Assembly (NCBI RefSeq): GCF_900606115.1
Contig: NZ_UWPJ01000017.1
Span: 1-64,000 of the forward strand
Length of the DNA stretch: 64,000 nt
Direction of reading: 5' to 3'
Origin: Pigmentiphaga humi
Lineage (GTDB): Bacteria; Pseudomonadota; Gammaproteobacteria; Burkholderiales; Burkholderiaceae_B
A program made the position numbers and the translations under genes. Below, piece by piece: positions 26,535-62,034 of the stretch (position 1 is the first letter of the stretch; the number at the start of each line of letters is the position of its first letter). The notes below the pieces were generated by a model, which was not told where the DNA came from, ran no database searches, and saw only the letters and a list, made by a program, of their open reading frames with translations.

Positions 26535-26640
26535 CAGGGCACCGCGGATCCGGCTTCGCCGGTCCGCCAGTGCCGCCTCCTCGAGGCACCCGCATAGCGG
26601 GTGGGGGGAGGGGGCCCGCGTCAGCGGGTAGGGGGTGAGT
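26535..26640 (-). repeat. Dispersed 3'-end repeat, family B copy 2
   Basis: Read on the minus strand it begins CCCCCTACCCGCTGACGC inside the last codons of the hydrolase gene, and ends with the core CGGACCGGCGAAGCCGGAT. The first bases encode the hydrolase C-terminus PPTR and its TGA stop. It lies between two convergent genes. Confidence 0.85.
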
Positions 26641-27643
26641 CCACCAATTCGGCTATCGCCGCCTCGACGGCGGCGATGTCGGCCGGGTCCGAACCCGGCG
26701 ATCCGGCGCGGTGGCCCCATATCGAATCCAGGATGCGCAGTTCGGCGCGCGGCATGCCCGCGACCGCCTGGGCGCTGTCTTCGGGCGGGAAATACTGGTC
26801 GGTGCGGCTGGGCATGACGATGGCCGGGCAGGCGATGGCGGCCAGTGCCCGTTGCCAGTCGCCGCCGAATTGCGGATCGGCTCCGATGTCGGCGGTCTGC
26901 CAGGTCCGCATCATCGCCAGCAGGTCGTTCGCGTCGCTATGGATGAAATTGTCGGCCCAGCGGCGTTCGAGATACGCGTCGAGGGTGTCGGCCTCGCGCA
27001 GGTGCAGTCCCGACCGGTAATACTCGGGCGACATCGCCCAGGCGGCATAAGCCCTGCCGACCGCGCGCAGCCCGGCCAGCGGCGAGCTGTCGTAGTTCCC
27101 GCCGTTCCAGCGGCAGTCCGCCTGCAGCGCGGCCTTGATGCTGTCGATGAAGGCGTAGTTATGCGGCGTGGTCCTGGCCGACCCGCACAGCGCGAACATC
27201 CTGCCGACCTGGGACGGAAAACTTGCCGCCCATTGGAACGCGGTCTGGGCGCCCATGGAGCGGCCCACCACCAGTTGCAGGAGGTCGATGCCGAAACGTT
27301 CGGCCAGCAGGCGCCGCTGCAGGCGAACGTTGTCGAGGATGTGGACCGCCGGAAAGCGCGGGCCGTCGAAGGGGGCGGCGGTATTGCTGGGCGAGCTCGA
27401 CAGGCCGTTGCCGAGCAGGTCGACGCACACGATGAAGTGGCGCGACGGGTCGAGCGCCTTGCCGGGTCCGATCAGCCAGGCATTCTTGTGGTGGGTGGAG
27501 CTGAACCAGGTCGGGAACAGGATGGCGTTGTCGCGCCGGGCGTTCAGCGTGCCGCAAGTCGCGAAGGCGAGGCGGGCGCGCGGCAGGGTGGCGCCGCTCA
27601 ACAGTTCGACGCGCTCGAAATCGTGATGACCGTCCGCCATCAT
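26621..27643 (-). CDS. Alpha/beta hydrolase, candidate N-formylmaleamate deformylase
   Basis: Soluble alpha/beta-hydrolase of 340 residues, of the homoserine O-acetyltransferase-like (MetX) branch: ILFPTWFSST, VCVDLLGNGLSSSPSN (oxyanion region), nucleophile elbow VVGRSMGAQTAFQ, a late Asp in PSRTDQYFPP and His in SIWGHRAGSP. The ATGA overlap with the dihydroxypyridine dioxygenase gene suggests it does the next step, deformylation of N-formylmaleamate, although the known NicD enzyme is shorter (about 270 residues) and of another branch. The last four residues and stop come from a repeat element. Function is inferred from context; true homoserine or carboxylate acyl transfer remains possible. 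Confidence 0.75.
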   Translation of the reverse strand: MMADGHHDFERVELLSGATLPRARLAFATCGTLNARRDNAILFPTWFSSTHHKNAWLIGPGKALDPSRHFIVCVDLLGNGLSSSPSNTAAPFDGPRFPAVHILDNVRLQRRLLAERFGIDLLQLVVGRSMGAQTAFQWAASFPSQVGRMFALCGSARTTPHNYAFIDSIKAALQADCRWNGGNYDSSPLAGLRAVGRAYAAWAMSPEYYRSGLHLREADTLDAYLERRWADNFIHSDANDLLAMMRTWQTADIGADPQFGGDWQRALAAIACPAIVMPSRTDQYFPPEDSAQAVAGMPRAELRILDSIWGHRAGSPGSDPADIAAVEAAIAELVDSPPTR

Positions 27644-28704
27644 CGCGAGGCTCCGTGATCGAGGCGCTGATCCGCGGCCACGATCTCGCCGTCGGTCACG
27701 ATGGGTTCACCGTCCAGCGATACGGAGCAGCGCGACATCGGAATGTCCACGTGGCAGGCCGAATGGTTGTTCCCGCCGGCCTCGGCGTTGGGGCCGGTGG
27801 AGAACAGGAAGTTGCCGTAGAAGGAGCGGGCGTCCATGCCCAGGGATTGCTGCTTGTCGCGCGCGCCGAGCGCGGTCCAGGCCGCCTTGGGCTGCAGGCC
27901 CCAGCCCACGTGCGCGACCGCGTAGGCGTCGGGATCGCGGTAGGACTCCAGGTACCGGCGCAGGTAGGCGGCCTCGAAGCCGCCGTCTATGCGCGTGATG
28001 TAGCCGTCGCGCACGTCGAGGACGATGGGCGCGCTTTCGACGTAGCGCTTGATCGGGAACAGCATGTCGCCGACGTCGATGACCACGCGCCCCTGGGCCG
28101 AGCGCTCGGCCGGCCAGGTCGAGATGAAGCCGCTGGGCCAATGGTCCCAATGGCCGGGTTCGTCGGCATAGCCGTATTCGGGCAGCGTGCCGAACTGGCC
28201 CAGCGGCAGGACGAGGTCGGTGCCGGCCGCGGACGTGACGTGCATCGTGCGCGCCGCCCGCAGCCGCGCATCCGCGGCCATCACCCGGCGCTTGTCGTCT
28301 TCGGTCGGCATCAGGCGCGCCAGGATCTCGGGCGGCTCCACCACCATCAGGATCCGGGTGCCGGCGGCGAGGATGTCGAGTTGTTCCGGCGAGTGCAGCA
28401 GGCCCATCAAGTCGATGACCAGGTCGGCCTGTTTGAGCAGCCCGACCGCGAGCGGATTGCCTGAAAGCGGCGTCGCGCCCAGGTGGGCGGTACGGTCGCT
28501 GCCGGGCTGGTGAGGCGCGAGCGGCGGCAGCTCGACGCGGAAGGCCCGGGTGCCGAACGACAGCGCGGCGCGCAGCGCGGCATCGACGTTCTGCGGATGG
28601 CTGGTCTCGCTGGTCAGGACGATGACGCCCTCGCTGCTTTGCAGCCTGCACAGTTCCAGCACGCCTCGCCACATCGCCAGGCGGTGATCGTCGCTGACGG
28701 CCAT
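27640..28704 (-). CDS. nicX: 2,5-dihydroxypyridine 5,6-dioxygenase
   Basis: Extradiol-type, Fe(II)-dependent ring-opening enzyme converting 2,5-dihydroxypyridine to N-formylmaleamate. The 354-residue product has the family length (about 350) and an aminopeptidase-like fold. Metal-ligand candidates are His in AHVGWGLQPKA and the His/Asp pair in SACHVDIPMSR. It follows the maleamate amidohydrolase gene by 15 nt and overlaps the hydrolase gene by 4 nt, so the operon encodes consecutive steps. The symbol follows the nicotinate pathway, but the same enzyme acts in picolinate and hydroxypicolinate routes. Confidence 0.88.
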   Translation of the reverse strand: MAVSDDHRLAMWRGVLELCRLQSSEGVIVLTSETSHPQNVDAALRAALSFGTRAFRVELPPLAPHQPGSDRTAHLGATPLSGNPLAVGLLKQADLVIDLMGLLHSPEQLDILAAGTRILMVVEPPEILARLMPTEDDKRRVMAADARLRAARTMHVTSAAGTDLVLPLGQFGTLPEYGYADEPGHWDHWPSGFISTWPAERSAQGRVVIDVGDMLFPIKRYVESAPIVLDVRDGYITRIDGGFEAAYLRRYLESYRDPDAYAVAHVGWGLQPKAAWTALGARDKQQSLGMDARSFYGNFLFSTGPNAEAGGNNHSACHVDIPMSRCSVSLDGEPIVTDGEIVAADQRLDHGASR

Positions 28705-28719
28705 GATGTCGTCCTCCGG

Positions 28720-29370
28720 TCAGGCGGCGCCTGGGCGCCAGGGGATGAAAGCGTCGAAGCCCGCCAGCGCGGCGTCGAGCGTGATCACGTCCGCATATTT
28801 CTTGTCCAGGTCGAACAGGCTGGCATCGTGGGCGCTGGCCGAGCGGTCGCCGACGCAGTCCGACACCACCATCGGGCGCAGCCCGTGGCACATCGCGTCC
28901 AGGGTGCTGGCGCGCACGCAGCCGCTGGTGGTGCAGCCGGCGATGTAGAGCGTATCGACGCCTTTGGCAATGAGAATGCCGGCCAGGTCGGTGCCGAAGA
29001 AGGCCGACGGCAGGCGCTTGCGGATCACGGTCTCGCCGCTCGCAGGCTGCAGTTCGGGCACGAAATGGCTTTGCGGATTGTCTTCGGTCAGCGTTTTCAG
29101 GCGCGGGACTTTCAGGCAATGGACGTTGTCGTCGCTGCCGTCGCCGGCGTAGACGATGCGCGTGTGCGCGACGGGCCAGCCGCGCCGGCGCGCCTCGGCC
29201 AGCAGCGTGGTGGTGCGTGCGATGGCGGCGCTGATGTTGCCGCCGCCGAACGCGGCAGGGTCGTTGAAACCGATCGTGAAGTCGATCACGAGCAGTGCCG
29301 GGCGCCGGCCGGGCCCCATGCGCTGGCCGAAGTGCTGTCGCGCGAAGATATCCTCTGCCGCCGAACTCAT
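28720..29370 (-). CDS. nicF: Maleamate amidohydrolase (isochorismatase fold)
   Basis: Hydrolyses maleamate to maleate and ammonia at the end of the dihydroxypyridine pathway. The 216-residue isochorismatase-like protein shows the catalytic triad Asp30 (LLVIDFTIGFND), Lys118 (VIRKRLPSAFF) and Cys151 (AGCTTSGCVRAS). The ATG at 29370 overlaps the monooxygenase stop as ATGA. No maleate isomerase gene (NicE) is present nearby, so maleate must be handled by an enzyme encoded elsewhere. Confidence 0.88.
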   Translation of the reverse strand: MSSAAEDIFARQHFGQRMGPGRRPALLVIDFTIGFNDPAAFGGGNISAAIARTTTLLAEARRRGWPVAHTRIVYAGDGSDDNVHCLKVPRLKTLTEDNPQSHFVPELQPASGETVIRKRLPSAFFGTDLAGILIAKGVDTLYIAGCTTSGCVRASTLDAMCHGLRPMVVSDCVGDRSASAHDASLFDLDKKYADVITLDAALAGFDAFIPWRPGAA

Positions 29371-30593
29371 GCGCTTGCCTCGTCGTCCAGCGGTACCGTG
29401 GCGGCGTCGTATTCGAAGATCCAGTCGTAGCGGGCCTGGACCTTGCTGGTTCCCCATTCGCGGTCGATGAAAGCCGGCCCTTCGACCGGATCGGCCAGCG
29501 CCCGGTTGTGGAAGCGGTTGATGTTCTCGGTCGAGCCGGCCACGATGCGGTAGGCGCGTTCGTGCCGCGCACGCTCGTAGCGCTGCAGCGCCGCCGCTAC
29601 GTCGTCGTCGCGTTCCAGGCAGCGGGCGAGCACCACGCCGTCCTCCATCGCGACGTTGGCGCCCTGGGCCAGCAGCGGGAACATCGCGTGGCAGGCATCG
29701 CCCAGCAGCGTGACTCGGCCTTCTGTCCAGGCATCGAGCGGCGGGCGGCGCACGATGCCCCATTTGAACGGCGCGTCGATCGCCCGGATCAGGGCTTGCA
29801 CGTCATCGTGCCAACCCTTGAAGTCGGCCGCGCATTCCTCGGTCGTGCCTTGCACGTTCCACGATTCGGCTACCCAGCCGGTGCGTTCCAGGTAGCCGAC
29901 GAAGTTCATCAGTTCCCCGCGGCGCAGCGGATAGTGGATCACGTGGCCGCCCGGGCCGACCCAGTTGGTGCCGACCGGACGCCGCAGATGCTGCGGCACC
30001 CGCTCCATCGGGATCACGGCGCGCCAGGCCATCATGTCGGCGAAGGTGGCGCGGTCGGAGCCGAAAAGCCGGGTGCGGGTCATCGAATGGATGCCGTCGG
30101 CGCCGATCAGCGCGCTGCCGCGCGCGGTCGCGCCCGATTCGAGCTGGAGCGTGACGCCGTCCCGGTCCTGCTCGAAGCCGGCGCAGCGGGCGCCCAGGCG
30201 GATCGCGTCGGGTTTCAGCGCGCGCACCCCGTCGACCAGCGCGTTGTGCAGATCGACGCGGTATGCCGTGAAGTACGAGAAGCCGAAGCGCCGGACGGCC
30301 TCGGCACCCAGGTCGAACAGCTTCCAGGTCTGGCCCGTGTTCCAGAGCCGGATCTCTTTCCCTTCGGTTTCGCAAGAGCTTGCGCGCACTGCGTCGAGTA
30401 CCCCGAGGTCGGCCAACACTCGCGAGCCGTTGGGGCTGATCTGCACGCCGGCGCCGACTTCGCGCAACTGGTCGGCCTGTTCGTATACCTCGACGTCGAG
30501 GCCCCTGCGCAGCAGGGCCAGGGCGGCGGCGAGGCCGCCGATCCCGGCTCCGGCGATCAGGACGGGCGGTTTGCTGGGGTTGGAAGAATGCAT
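29367..30593 (-). CDS. FAD-dependent aromatic monooxygenase of pyridine pathway
   Basis: Single-component flavoprotein hydroxylase of 408 residues. It has the Rossmann GAGIGGLAAALALLRRG, the DG motif LIGADGIHS and the FAD/ribityl GD motif VTLLGDACHAMFPLLAQGAN. The C-terminal half (SWNVQGTTEECAADFKGWH; STENINRFHN) resembles salicylate and 3-hydroxybenzoate 6-hydroxylases more than Pseudomonas NicC. In context it should form 2,5-dihydroxypyridine by decarboxylative hydroxylation: from 6-hydroxynicotinate (NicC role) or from 5-hydroxypicolinate (HpaM role described in Alcaligenaceae). No NicAB is seen, which favours the second, but this is unproven. Confidence 0.85.
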   Translation of the reverse strand: MHSSNPSKPPVLIAGAGIGGLAAALALLRRGLDVEVYEQADQLREVGAGVQISPNGSRVLADLGVLDAVRASSCETEGKEIRLWNTGQTWKLFDLGAEAVRRFGFSYFTAYRVDLHNALVDGVRALKPDAIRLGARCAGFEQDRDGVTLQLESGATARGSALIGADGIHSMTRTRLFGSDRATFADMMAWRAVIPMERVPQHLRRPVGTNWVGPGGHVIHYPLRRGELMNFVGYLERTGWVAESWNVQGTTEECAADFKGWHDDVQALIRAIDAPFKWGIVRRPPLDAWTEGRVTLLGDACHAMFPLLAQGANVAMEDGVVLARCLERDDDVAAALQRYERARHERAYRIVAGSTENINRFHNRALADPVEGPAFIDREWGTSKVQARYDWIFEYDAATVPLDDEASA

Positions 30594-30633
30594 GCTGGCT
30601 CCATATTGCTGTGCAGGCGGCGGGCGCGCCGCG

Positions 30634-31653
30634 CTATTCGTTCTTGATGCCGGTCCGCTGGACTACGGCCGTCCACTTTTTCAGTTCGGACGAGATGCTT
30701 TGCGCGAATTCCTCCGAGGTGGTGCCCAGGACCTCGAAACCCGCTGCTTCGAGCTGGCCGCGAACGGTCGGGTCGGCCAGCGTCGCGCTCAACTCGCGTG
30801 TCAGCTTGGCGACGATGTCGGGCGGCGTGCCCGCCGGCGCGACCAGCCCGAACCAGCTATAGGCGTCGAAGGGCTTGTGGAGCATCTCGGCGATGGTGGG
30901 CACCTCGGGCAGCATCGGGCTGCGGTTCTGGCCGGTGATCCCATAGGGGACGAGTGCGCCGCTGCGAATGTGGGGCCGCAACGTGGAGACCGCGTCGAAC
31001 AGCAGGTCGATCTGCTTGCCGAGCAGGTCGTTCAGCGCCGGCGCGACGCCGCTGTAGCCGATATGCAGCAGATCGACGCCGAACGTCGATTCGAACAGCT
31101 CGCCGGTCAGGTGGGTCGACGATCCCGTCCCGGCCGAGCCGTACGTCAGCTTGCCGGGCTGCGACTTGACCAGCGCGATGAGGTCGGGCAGCGTCTTGGC
31201 GGGCAGGTCGCCGCGGCCCACGAGCACGTGGGGACTGCGCACCGCCTGGCTGATCGGGGTGAACGACTTGATCGGATCGTAGGCGAGCTTGGGGTAGAGC
31301 GCCGGGCCCATCGCCAGGCTACTGGTGCCGGCCCATAGCAGCGTATAGCCATCGGGCGCGGCCCGCACCACGGCCATCGGGCCAACGGTGCCGCCGCCGC
31401 CCGCGCGGTTTTCGACCACCATCTGCTGGCCCAGCCGCGGCCCCAGAGCCTGGGCGATCGCCCGCGCGCTGGCGTCGGTCGGACCGCCCGGTGCGAAGGG
31501 CACTACCAGCGTGATGGGCTTGGCAGGGTAGGTCTGCGCCGCGCCCGGGCCCGGCAGCAGGGCCGCGAGCACCAGCGCGCCCAGCGCGAATGTCCAGCGC
31601 CGCGCGGTGGCGCTGCCGGAAGAGACTGGCGAGGCAGGGGCAACACCGATCAT
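30634..31653 (-). CDS. Bug/TctC periplasmic receptor of pyridine operon
   Basis: Periplasmic binding protein of the Bordetella uptake gene (Bug, TctC) family, 339 residues. An N-terminal signal (TFALGALVLAALLPGPGAAQ) precedes the family start TYPAKPITLVVPFAPGGPTD, with VENRAGGGGT and the LTYGSAGTGSSTHL ligand loop. The ATG follows GGAG; a longer frame upstream is not used. First gene of the operon, 40 nt before the monooxygenase gene, so it probably captures the pyridine carboxylate substrate. No TctA/TctB permease genes are present. Confidence 0.9.
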   Translation of the reverse strand: MIGVAPASPVSSGSATARRWTFALGALVLAALLPGPGAAQTYPAKPITLVVPFAPGGPTDASARAIAQALGPRLGQQMVVENRAGGGGTVGPMAVVRAAPDGYTLLWAGTSSLAMGPALYPKLAYDPIKSFTPISQAVRSPHVLVGRGDLPAKTLPDLIALVKSQPGKLTYGSAGTGSSTHLTGELFESTFGVDLLHIGYSGVAPALNDLLGKQIDLLFDAVSTLRPHIRSGALVPYGITGQNRSPMLPEVPTIAEMLHKPFDAYSWFGLVAPAGTPPDIVAKLTRELSATLADPTVRGQLEAAGFEVLGTTSEEFAQSISSELKKWTAVVQRTGIKNE

Positions 31654-31765
31654 GGTTTTCTCCAGTGGGACCGTCGGGGAAACGGATACTGCTCGGTGTT
31701 GATTCTTGCGTGGGCGGGCCGGATCGGACAAGCTACGGAACGGATTGAATTCACAAAGAACTCCT

Positions 31766-32770
31766 ATGAACATCTCGACCAAGCAACTGCGAGCGTTCAT
31801 CTATGCCGCGCAGCTGGGCAGCTTTACGCGCGCAGCCGAGCGCCTGCATATGACGCAGGCGGGCTTGAGCGCGATCATCCGGGAACTGGAAGTGCAGATG
31901 GACAGCAGGCTGTTCCACCGCACCACGCGCCTGATTTCGCTGACCGAGGCCGGCCAGCGGCTGCTGCCCGTGGCGGAGCGCGCGGTATCCGATCTGCAGC
32001 GGGTCATGGCCGAAGTCAACGAACTCGAAGCGGTGGCGCGCGGCACCCTGCGCGTGGGCGCGACGCCGCTGGTGGCCAATGACTTGCTGCCGGCAGCCTA
32101 TGTGGAATTCCGCCGCGCCCACCCCGACGTCAAGCTCGAAATCTTCGGGGTGTCGCCCGAGATCATCGAAGAATCCGTGAGCGCCGGCGAACTCGATTTC
32201 GGCCTGGGCGTGTTCCCTCGGCCGATTGCCGACCTGGAGCGCTCGCGGCTGTTCAGCGCGCGCCTGTTCTGCGTCGGTCCGGACAACCGGCGCGTGGCGG
32301 CCTCGCGCGCCGGCAACCCGCTGCGCCGCATCGGCGCCATGACGTGGGACGACCTGCGTGGCAAGCCGCTCATCAGCCTGCCGTCCGAGAATGCGATGCA
32401 GCAACTGATAGACCGGCATCTGCCGCGCGAAGAACCACCGGTGCTGCGCGCGTCCCGCCTGCCGCCCGCTCAGGGGCGGCCTGCTCCGCATGGGGCGGTC
32501 AGGCTGAAAGAAGGCACGGGCATTGCCGAGCGGGCGATCGTCAACCACATCGAAACGCAGATCGCCATGGTCGAGCTGGGGCTGGGCTGGGCCATCGTGC
32601 CCGCGTTCGCGCTGCCCGCGTGCCGCCACTATCGCGTGTCCCTGTACGAACTCGAGCCGGCCGTCGACATCGACTTCTTCCGCATCGTCAGGAAAGGACA
32701 CAAGACGCACAAGCTCCGGGACGAGTTCTGCAAGGTGCTGGTGGCGAATATGACCCCCCCTACGCGCTGA
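31766..32770 (+). CDS. LysR regulator of pyridine operon
   Basis: LysR-type transcriptional regulator of 334 residues. The N-terminal winged helix is typical (MNISTKQLRAFIYAAQLGSF; AGLSAIIRELE), followed by the co-inducer domain from ARGTLRVGATP. It is divergent from the Bug-monooxygenase operon with a 112-bp shared region, so it likely controls that operon. It is about 30 residues longer than usual because of an unconserved stretch near residues 225-255 (ASRLPPAQGRPAPHG) before VNHIETQIAMVELGLG. Its last residues TPPTR and stop lie inside a family B repeat. Confidence 0.88.
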   Translation: MNISTKQLRAFIYAAQLGSFTRAAERLHMTQAGLSAIIRELEVQMDSRLFHRTTRLISLTEAGQRLLPVAERAVSDLQRVMAEVNELEAVARGTLRVGATPLVANDLLPAAYVEFRRAHPDVKLEIFGVSPEIIEESVSAGELDFGLGVFPRPIADLERSRLFSARLFCVGPDNRRVAASRAGNPLRRIGAMTWDDLRGKPLISLPSENAMQQLIDRHLPREEPPVLRASRLPPAQGRPAPHGAVRLKEGTGIAERAIVNHIETQIAMVELGLGWAIVPAFALPACRHYRVSLYELEPAVDIDFFRIVRKGHKTHKLRDEFCKVLVANMTPPTR

Positions 32771-61122: not shown

Positions 61123-62034
61123 ATGGAATCCGCCATGGCCGCCACTCCGCTGTTCGCGCTGCCTGTCGCGCGCCATCGCGTGAACGGCGTCGAGATCGCC
61201 GCGCGCATGGCCGGGTCGGGGCCGGCGCTGCTGCTCCTGCACGGGCATCCGCAGACCCACGCCATGTGGCACAAGCTGTGGCCGGCGCTGACGCGGCATT
61301 TCAGCTGCGTGGCGATGGACTTGCGCGGCTACGGCGACAGCGGCATACCGGCCGACGAGCCCGCCGGCCATGCGGCGTTTTCCAAGCGCGAACTGGCGCG
61401 CGACGCGGTGGCGCTGATGCGGGAGCTGGGGCACGAGCGCTTCCACGTGCTGGCGCACGACCGCGGCGCGCGCGTGGCGCATCGGCTGGCGCTGGATCAT
61501 CCGCAACGGATCGAGCGCATGATGCTGCTCGACATCGCGCCCACGCTCGACATGTACGAAGGCACCACGCGCGGATTCGCGCAGGCCTATTACCACTGGT
61601 TCCTGCTGACCCAGCCCGCGCCGCTCCCGGAGCGCCTGATAGGCGCCGATCCGGCCTTCTACGTGCGCTCGATCATGGGCGGCCGCCACGCCGGCCTGGC
61701 GCCGTTCACCGCCGAGGCCCTGGCCGAGTATGAGCGCTGCGCCCGCCATGCGCACTGGCCGCACGCGATCTGCGAAGACTATCGCGCCGCGGCCGCCATC
61801 GACCTGGAACACGACCGCGCCGACCGCGCCCGGGGCCTGCGCATTGCCTGCCCGCTGCGCGTGCTGTGGGGCGGCAAGGGCGTGGTGGGGCGGTATTTCG
61901 ACGTGCTCGGGCTGTGGCGGCCGCAGGCCGAACAGGTGGACGGCCGGCCGCTGGACTGCGGCCACTACATCGCCGAAGAGGCGCCCGAGGTGTTGTGGGA
62001 GGAAGTGCGGAGGTTCTGGGGGATCGCGGGCTAA
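61123..62034 (+). CDS. Haloacetate (fluoroacetate-type) dehalogenase
   Basis: Alpha/beta hydrolase of 303 residues. All residues that define fluoroacetate dehalogenases are present at the expected spacing: nucleophile Asp113 and Arg114/Arg117 in AHDRGARVAHR, Asp137, the halide pocket His158/Trp159 in YYHWFLLTQP with Tyr220 in CEDYRAAA, and catalytic His281 in CGHYIAEEAP. It follows the dehydrogenase by 2 nt, so it is co-transcribed. It likely hydrolyses 2-haloacids to 2-hydroxyacids; whether fluoro- or chloroacetate is preferred cannot be told. Confidence 0.88.
   Translation: MESAMAATPLFALPVARHRVNGVEIAARMAGSGPALLLLHGHPQTHAMWHKLWPALTRHFSCVAMDLRGYGDSGIPADEPAGHAAFSKRELARDAVALMRELGHERFHVLAHDRGARVAHRLALDHPQRIERMMLLDIAPTLDMYEGTTRGFAQAYYHWFLLTQPAPLPERLIGADPAFYVRSIMGGRHAGLAPFTAEALAEYERCARHAHWPHAICEDYRAAAAIDLEHDRADRARGLRIACPLRVLWGGKGVVGRYFDVLGLWRPQAEQVDGRPLDCGHYIAEEAPEVLWEEVRRFWGIAG

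Follow-up and report, generated by a model that had tools for sequence, protein, structure and literature searches.

We analysed a 64,000-nt stretch of Pigmentiphaga humi DNA (G000:C8:1-64000, in a 5.1-Mb genome; the whole stretch is called the window below) that carries at 26621-31653 a five-gene operon, and this gene set very probably opens a hydroxylated pyridine ring. The operon is a real and rare variant of the pathways that run through 2,5-dihydroxypyridine (2,5-DHP), with two non-standard enzymes. Our preferred reading, which we put forward tentatively, is that it breaks down a mono-hydroxylated pyridine via 2,5-DHP, with 3-hydroxypyridine as the most likely substrate and 5-hydroxypicolinate as the next, and that a MetX-like hydrolase serves as the deformylase. 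In its most specific form, in which a single-component flavin monooxygenase taken over from a clade linked to gentisate and homogentisate hydroxylates C6 of 3-hydroxypyridine and a serine hydrolase of MetX fold stands in for NicD, the proposal is rather unlikely to hold in all its parts. We found no description of such a pathway among open-licence PMC papers, nor of the operon itself in their titles and abstract beginnings, which is weak evidence of absence.

The five genes are co-directional on the minus strand, with a LysR gene divergent from them, and from the LysR side they encode a Bug receptor, an FAD monooxygenase, a maleamate amidohydrolase, a 2,5-DHP 5,6-dioxygenase and an alpha/beta hydrolase. 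These identities, as given in the original prediction, stood up to Pfam, NCBIfam and solved-structure matches. The NicF-like amidohydrolase (28720..29370, minus strand) has an isochorismatase fold (PF00857, 145 bits, 4.6e-42) and its best solved match is 3ot4 (230 bits, 2.1e-67), which we take to be Bordetella NicF. The dioxygenase (27640..28704, minus strand) is 52% identical to the solved NicX 7cn3 (411 bits, 4e-122). When compared at 12 NicX sites named in the partial text of PMC7910607, it keeps 10, comprising all eight iron ligands (His265, Ser302, His318, Asp320) and substrate contacts (Leu104, His105, Glu177, His189) together with Arg293 and Glu308; the two changed sites are Cys76 and Val175 (to Leu). 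By homology, the predicted conversions of 2,5-DHP to N-formylmaleamate by the dioxygenase and of maleamate to maleate by the amidohydrolase are well supported, and the predicted assignment of the operon backbone to 2,5-DHP breakdown is firm. A 2,5-DHP operon had been claimed from the outset, and NicF together with a NicX that has all four metal ligands and the key DHP contacts bears this out.

The complete operon was found in three genomes: that of the window, Pigmentiphaga kullae K24 (G191, NZ_SGXC01000003.1) and the metagenome-assembled genome (MAG) Burkholderiales 67-32 (G194, MKUP01000007.1). In P. kullae and MAG 67-32 the order LysR, divergent from Bug-monooxygenase-NicF-NicX-hydrolase, is kept, with protein identities to the window copies of 51-52, 64-66, 73-74, 80-81, 71-72 and 71-74%, respectively. 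Because gene order is conserved at 64–81% protein identity (51–52% for LysR), the operon is not a chance assembly. Family searches gave close matches lying side by side in 3 of 268 genomes, again these three. A dioxygenase search of genome contigs returned 10 loci, two of which (P. kullae and MAG 67-32) have the operon's type of monooxygenase adjoining, and in a plasmid collection none of the 631 records matching the monooxygenase reached 60% identity or more. All five genes had been described as coupled by 4-nt overlaps. This is correct for two of the four junctions, monooxygenase/amidohydrolase (29367-29370) and dioxygenase/hydrolase (27640-27643), the latter overlap also being present in P. 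kullae and MAG 67-32; at the other two junctions the genes stand apart, by 40 nt (30594-30633) and 15 nt (28705-28719).

The group A FAD monooxygenase (29367..30593, minus strand; PF01494, FAD_binding_3, 112 bits) is the proposed para-hydroxylase that would make 2,5-DHP. Its best NCBIfam model is that of 3-hydroxybenzoate 6-monooxygenase (3HB6H; PRK08163/NF006021) at 289 bits, with a curated cut-off of 459, and its nearest solved chains in phmmer are tropone 2-monooxygenase (TrlE, 8rqh) at 269 bits and NicC at 195–197 bits. In a tree of 71 rows (IQ-TREE, LG+C20) the window enzyme groups with its two orthologues at 100/100 support, and this trio falls inside a 38-row clade (100/99) in which its nearest sister is weakly supported (91/91, 86/71). 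Canonical 3HB6H orthology was considered and rejected, as the scores of 288.6/288.2 bits fall below the NF006021 cut-off and the enzyme sits in a separate clade. Thus the earlier description of the monooxygenase as closer to 3HB6H-type enzymes than to NicC survives in the best-scoring model and in the rejection of NicC described below, but not as membership in PRK08163. According to the partial text of PMC11110157, TrlE has an Arg/His/Tyr set that is likened to those of 3HB6H and NicC. This set is kept in the window enzyme; being common to TrlE, 3HB6H and NicC, it was dropped as a substrate discriminator.

What the clade members do is suggested by their neighbours. Among the 35 other clade rows, hmgA adjoins the monooxygenase in four (G215, G079, G080, G090) and a gentisate-dioxygenase-like gene in another four (Diaphorobacter L106, G049, G045, G053), so that the clade context appears to be cleavage of 2,5-dihydroxy-benzenoids. 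G215 has the order LysR, divergent from Bug-monooxygenase, then one gene, hmgA and fumarylacetoacetase, the last two scoring above equivalog cut-offs. One further row, L107, lies ∼7 kb from a gene annotated as gentisate 1,2-dioxygenase, two rows sit in hydroxycinnamate loci, two (L092, L129) have NicX and molybdenum hydroxylase (Mo-hydroxylase) neighbours, and L108 has a Mo-hydroxylase neighbour. Read together, the interpretable neighbourhoods suggest that enzymes of this clade hydroxylate meta-hydroxylated rings in the para position, giving 2,5-dihydroxy products. We propose para-hydroxylation for the window enzyme too; going from 3-hydroxypyridine to 2,5-DHP is the exact aza-analogue of the step from 3-hydroxybenzoate to gentisate. 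According to the partial text of PMC6525221, 2,5-DHP arises as an intermediate when Agrobacterium DW-1 degrades 3-hydroxypyridine. Same-clade monooxygenases occur in NicX clusters other than the operon (L092, L129). The L092, L129 and L108 clusters each combine a Mo-hydroxylase, a window-clade monooxygenase and an isochorismatase, with a divergent NicX and NicD also present in L092 and L129; they possibly encode an undescribed N-heterocycle pathway.

These Mo-hydroxylase neighbours bear on a different substrate, 2-hydroxypyridine or another alpha-hydroxypyridine hydroxylated at C5. Para-hydroxylation would likewise give 2,5-DHP in this case, and the clade members in L092, L108 and L129 may act on alpha-hydroxylated rings. 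The operon itself contains no Mo-hydroxylase, however, and in the partial text of PMC6525221 2-hydroxypyridine is described as degraded via 2,3,6-trihydroxypyridine, which leaves this substrate highly improbable.

Another source of 2,5-DHP would be 6-hydroxynicotinate, made by a NicAB-like enzyme encoded on another contig (C22) and converted by the window monooxygenase in place of NicC. No NicA, NicB, NicC, NicD or NicE orthologue lies inside the operon. The genome does hold NicA-like (62%) and NicB-like (53%) genes at C22:448.9-453.0 kb and no close NicC (best 48%), and the operon has the 2,5-DHP cleavage genes, all of which would suit this route. But the NicAB-like locus (G000:C22:448900-453100; L121 8918-13031) has a separate cytochrome c gene and no nicC or nicX neighbours. 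NicB-like matches of 50–53% also occur in G191, G194 and G196, and for G196 the matches listed included no close counterpart of the monooxygenase, dioxygenase or hydrolase of the operon. NicC orthology of the window enzyme was itself rejected. It is 33% identical to KT2440 NicC, other monooxygenases of the genome being closer (48% on C21, 46% on C22, 44% on C37 and 43% on C46); an approximately unbiased (AU) test of trees holding the trio with NicC gave p 6.7e-50; and His47 and His302, which we take to be NicC active-site residues, are not kept, their columns holding Gln and Leu. We regard the 6-hydroxynicotinate route as very unlikely. The original prediction, which also raised the case of nicAB or nicE lying elsewhere under the same regulator, was right that NicAB and NicE are absent from the operon, but not from the genome, where NicE-like genes lie on C24 (80%) and C22 (66%) in addition to the NicAB-like genes on C22.

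The window genome has six NicX homologues (C8, C24, two on C22, C27 and C12; L011-L021) in differing neighbourhoods, the five other copies being 41–55% identical to that of the window. The residue equivalent to His105 is His in the window, P. kullae, KT2440 and BYT-5 enzymes and Phe in the five other copies, as it is in Caballeronia and Azospirillum. NicD-like genes lie on C24 (71%) and C27 (45%). The C24 set, with genes for Rieske, PicC-like amidohydrolase, NicE, NicD, NicX and NicF proteins, looks like a picolinate cluster.

Alcaligenes faecalis JQ135 reportedly carries nic, pic and hpa clusters, the hpa cluster serving 5-hydroxypicolinate degradation. G057 (4.1 Mb) has four NicX matches. 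The first sits among NicA/NicB-like genes in a cluster of nic type (L082), the second among PicC-like and Rieske genes in one of pic type (L083) and the third in a NicD-NicX-NicF-monooxygenase set with neither NicAB nor PicC beside it (L084); the fourth, a divergent copy (39%; L172), has no other reference genes within ∼9 kb. Because the other clusters are assigned to nic and pic, the L084 monooxygenase is taken by elimination as HpaM, and the name "presumptive HpaM clade" used here is a label reached in this way for a tree that does not include HpaM's own sequence. NicC of G057 is 85% identical to KT2440 NicC; 83.3% is reported for Alcaligenes P156 NicC in the partial text of PMC6403243. Clusters from Caballeronia, Azospirillum, G106, G123, G196 and P. 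kullae fall in the presumptive HpaM clade, of seven rows, as well.

We weighed whether the window operon degrades 5-hydroxypicolinate, in which case the HpaM reaction, a decarboxylative para-hydroxylation to 2,5-DHP, would have arisen a second time. The para-attack chemistry is identical to that proposed for 3-hydroxypyridine, with loss of CO2. A Bug receptor would suit a carboxylated substrate; as proof of one it was dropped, since Bug genes occur in most annotated stretches of the window genome. TrlE, the closest solved relative by score, catalyses ipso-hydroxylation and decarboxylation according to the partial text of PMC11110157. We took as trio-specific those sites at which at least 85% of 31 sister rows have a residue other than the trio's; at two of them, V241 and G279, all seven presumptive HpaM rows share the trio's residue, which leans to 5-hydroxypicolinate. 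This is contrasted by the position of the trio outside the presumptive HpaM clade, with 32–36% identity to the three compared of its seven rows and an AU p of 4.3e-66 for trees that hold the two together, the identity of that clade itself being assigned by elimination. Furthermore, those members of the window enzyme's own 38-row clade that have a readable context adjoin genes for cleaving rings whose carboxyl side chain stays in place, and P. kullae carries a presumptive-HpaM-clade cluster and the window operon together (L122, L085). A second 5-hydroxypicolinate route would be redundant there, so the two clusters likely serve different substrates. Both AU results, for trio plus NicC and for trio plus presumptive HpaM clade, share the long-branch limits of the model. 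The phylogeny against NicC and HpaM that had been proposed as a check therefore rejects grouping with NicC, and with HpaM as represented by the presumptive clade only. The earlier judgement that 5-hydroxypicolinate fits the gene content better was not upheld, and we consider this substrate unlikely.

The last gene (26621..27643, minus strand) encodes a MetX-like alpha/beta hydrolase of the PRK07581 subfamily, which scores 433.9 bits with NF005757, above the curated cut-off of 332; the MetX homoserine O-acetyltransferase assignment (TIGR01392) was rejected at 156 bits against an equivalog cut-off of 500. We propose it as the N-formylmaleamate deformylase. NicD was not found in the operon, and the only NicD-like match in the window (51 bits, at 61204) is 33 kb away. 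To place this in context, we assembled 59 distinct NicX loci from 74 places (at least 850 nt and at least 150 bits), removing identical DNA and leaving out weaker places such as L010 (L168-L172 also lie outside the set), and counted neighbours scoring >100 bits within 6 kb of NicX. NicD stands beside NicX in 44 of these loci, a MetX-like hydrolase in five (the window, P. kullae, MAG 67-32, L004 and L009), an amidase-signature gene in three and none of them in seven; NicD and the MetX-like hydrolase co-occur in 0 of 59. These counts are not a census, as similarity to the window NicX decided which loci entered the set, with a flank of only 1.5 kb in many cases. A quick-method tree places the window, P. 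kullae, MAG 67-32 and L004 hydrolases in one clade (98) and L009 elsewhere. The partial text of PMC13230308 describes deformylation of N-formylmaleamate by a Ser-His-Asp hydrolase of the alpha/beta type that also acts as an esterase, which makes MetX-like deformylation chemically reasonable. Amidase-signature genes adjoin NicX where NicD is missing (L018 8330-9751, L019 7904-9310, L088 8610-10007), and their products may be N-formylmaleamate deformylases of a third type.

Alternatively the hydrolase may free the hydroxypyridine from an ester or act on another acyl compound, with the picolinate-type NicD on C24 acting in trans. The presence of that NicD would allow this, and the closest solved relatives of the hydrolase are annotated as homoserine O-acetyltransferases. 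Nor do its homologues elsewhere lie beside NicX: none did in the 22 other phylum loci (4-kb stretches with 1.5-kb flanks) or in the four family loci inspected out of 13 further family matches. Against this stand the 4-nt overlap of the hydrolase gene with nicX, which the operons of P. kullae and MAG 67-32 share, the occurrence complementary to that of NicD, and the separate second association in L009. A role other than deformylase is thus a serious possibility, if not a likely one.

In the pathway that we favour, the FAD monooxygenase would add a hydroxyl para to the ring hydroxyl, likeliest on 3-hydroxypyridine at C6, and NicX, with good support from homology, would open the 2,5-DHP ring to N-formylmaleamate. 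The MetX-like serine hydrolase may then remove formate instead of NicD, as its context suggests, after which NicF, as homology supports, would release ammonia to give maleate, which may be isomerised by NicE from another locus of the genome. The Bug receptor and LysR protein would presumably provide uptake or sensing, and induction.

Several points weigh against this pathway. Pyridine alpha-hydroxylation is usually carried out by molybdenum enzymes, according to the partial text of PMC6525221. 5-Hydroxypicolinate is 3-hydroxypyridine with a carboxyl at the attacked C6; residues do not separate the two, and V241 and G279 lean to the former. The putative sister functions in the 38-row clade are read from neighbour genes, the Diaphorobacter L106 cupin scores 221 bits where the gentisate dioxygenase cut-off is 442, and no reference ring-cleavage gene was seen in the remaining clade rows, many with only ∼1.5 kb of flank. 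On the hydrolase side, the independent NicX associations amount to two events because four of the five rows form one clade, and in L009 an amidase-signature gene lies nearby too, its 90 bits falling below the 100-bit line. Finally, NicD and NicE encoded elsewhere could act in trans.

The Bug/TctC periplasmic receptor (30634..31653, minus strand; PF03401, 257 bits, 4e-76; orthologues 64-66%) is apparently an orphan, as no TctA/TctB homologue was recognised among the genes called beside it, where no model-based search was made. The LysR-family regulator (31766..32770, plus strand; 334 aa; Pfam LysR_substrate and HTH_1) is 51–52% identical to the LysR proteins at the same position in P. kullae and MAG 67-32, and its effector domain has ∼27 extra residues that an alignment shows to be missing from four related LysR proteins. 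The 112-bp divergent region between LysR gene and operon (31654..31765) gave no sigma-70-like match, and a promoter and terminator scan found nothing above chance.

If our preferred reading is true, a benzenoid para-hydroxylase module (LysR divergent from Bug-monooxygenase) has been joined to pyridine ring-cleavage genes to form an aza-gentisate pathway. The operon would then offer a candidate for a non-orthologous N-formylmaleamate deformylase, as well as one for an enzyme that alpha-hydroxylates pyridines selectively without molybdenum, and would caution against reading every NicX operon as one for nicotinate degradation.

Compared with known systems, the operon shares the NicX and NicF steps of 2,5-DHP cleavage with the nic cluster for nicotinate, for which we used a Pseudomonas sp. 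BYT-5 plasmid (L103) whose gene order is presumably that of P. putida nic. Unlike that cluster it lacks NicAB, NicD and NicE, has a monooxygenase of another clade for NicC, and has Bug and LysR genes where L103 has major facilitator superfamily (MFS) and MarR genes. The presumptive hpa counterpart (G057 L084) resembles the operon in combining monooxygenase, NicX and NicF without NicAB, whereas the window has an other-clade monooxygenase (32–36%) and a MetX-like hydrolase for NicD. Next closest in NicX (60–64%) and NicF (60–65%) are MAG loci of Lacisediminimonas (L003) and Paucimonas (L004), L004 also having a MetX-like hydrolase (57%). Instead of a flavin monooxygenase these loci have a three-subunit Mo-hydroxylase and a Rieske oxygenase (domains checked in L004); as the Rieske oxygenase-like gene in both means that two hydroxylations may be needed, they were dropped as proof of 3-hydroxypyridine. 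The monooxygenase itself has its counterparts, 52–58% identical, in gentisate-type and homogentisate loci (Diaphorobacter HDW4B L106, G049 L095, G215 L093), in which neither NicX nor NicF was found and in which cupin or HmgA dioxygenases and FAH hydrolases are present instead; with G215 L093 the window operon has the LysR|Bug-monooxygenase module in common.

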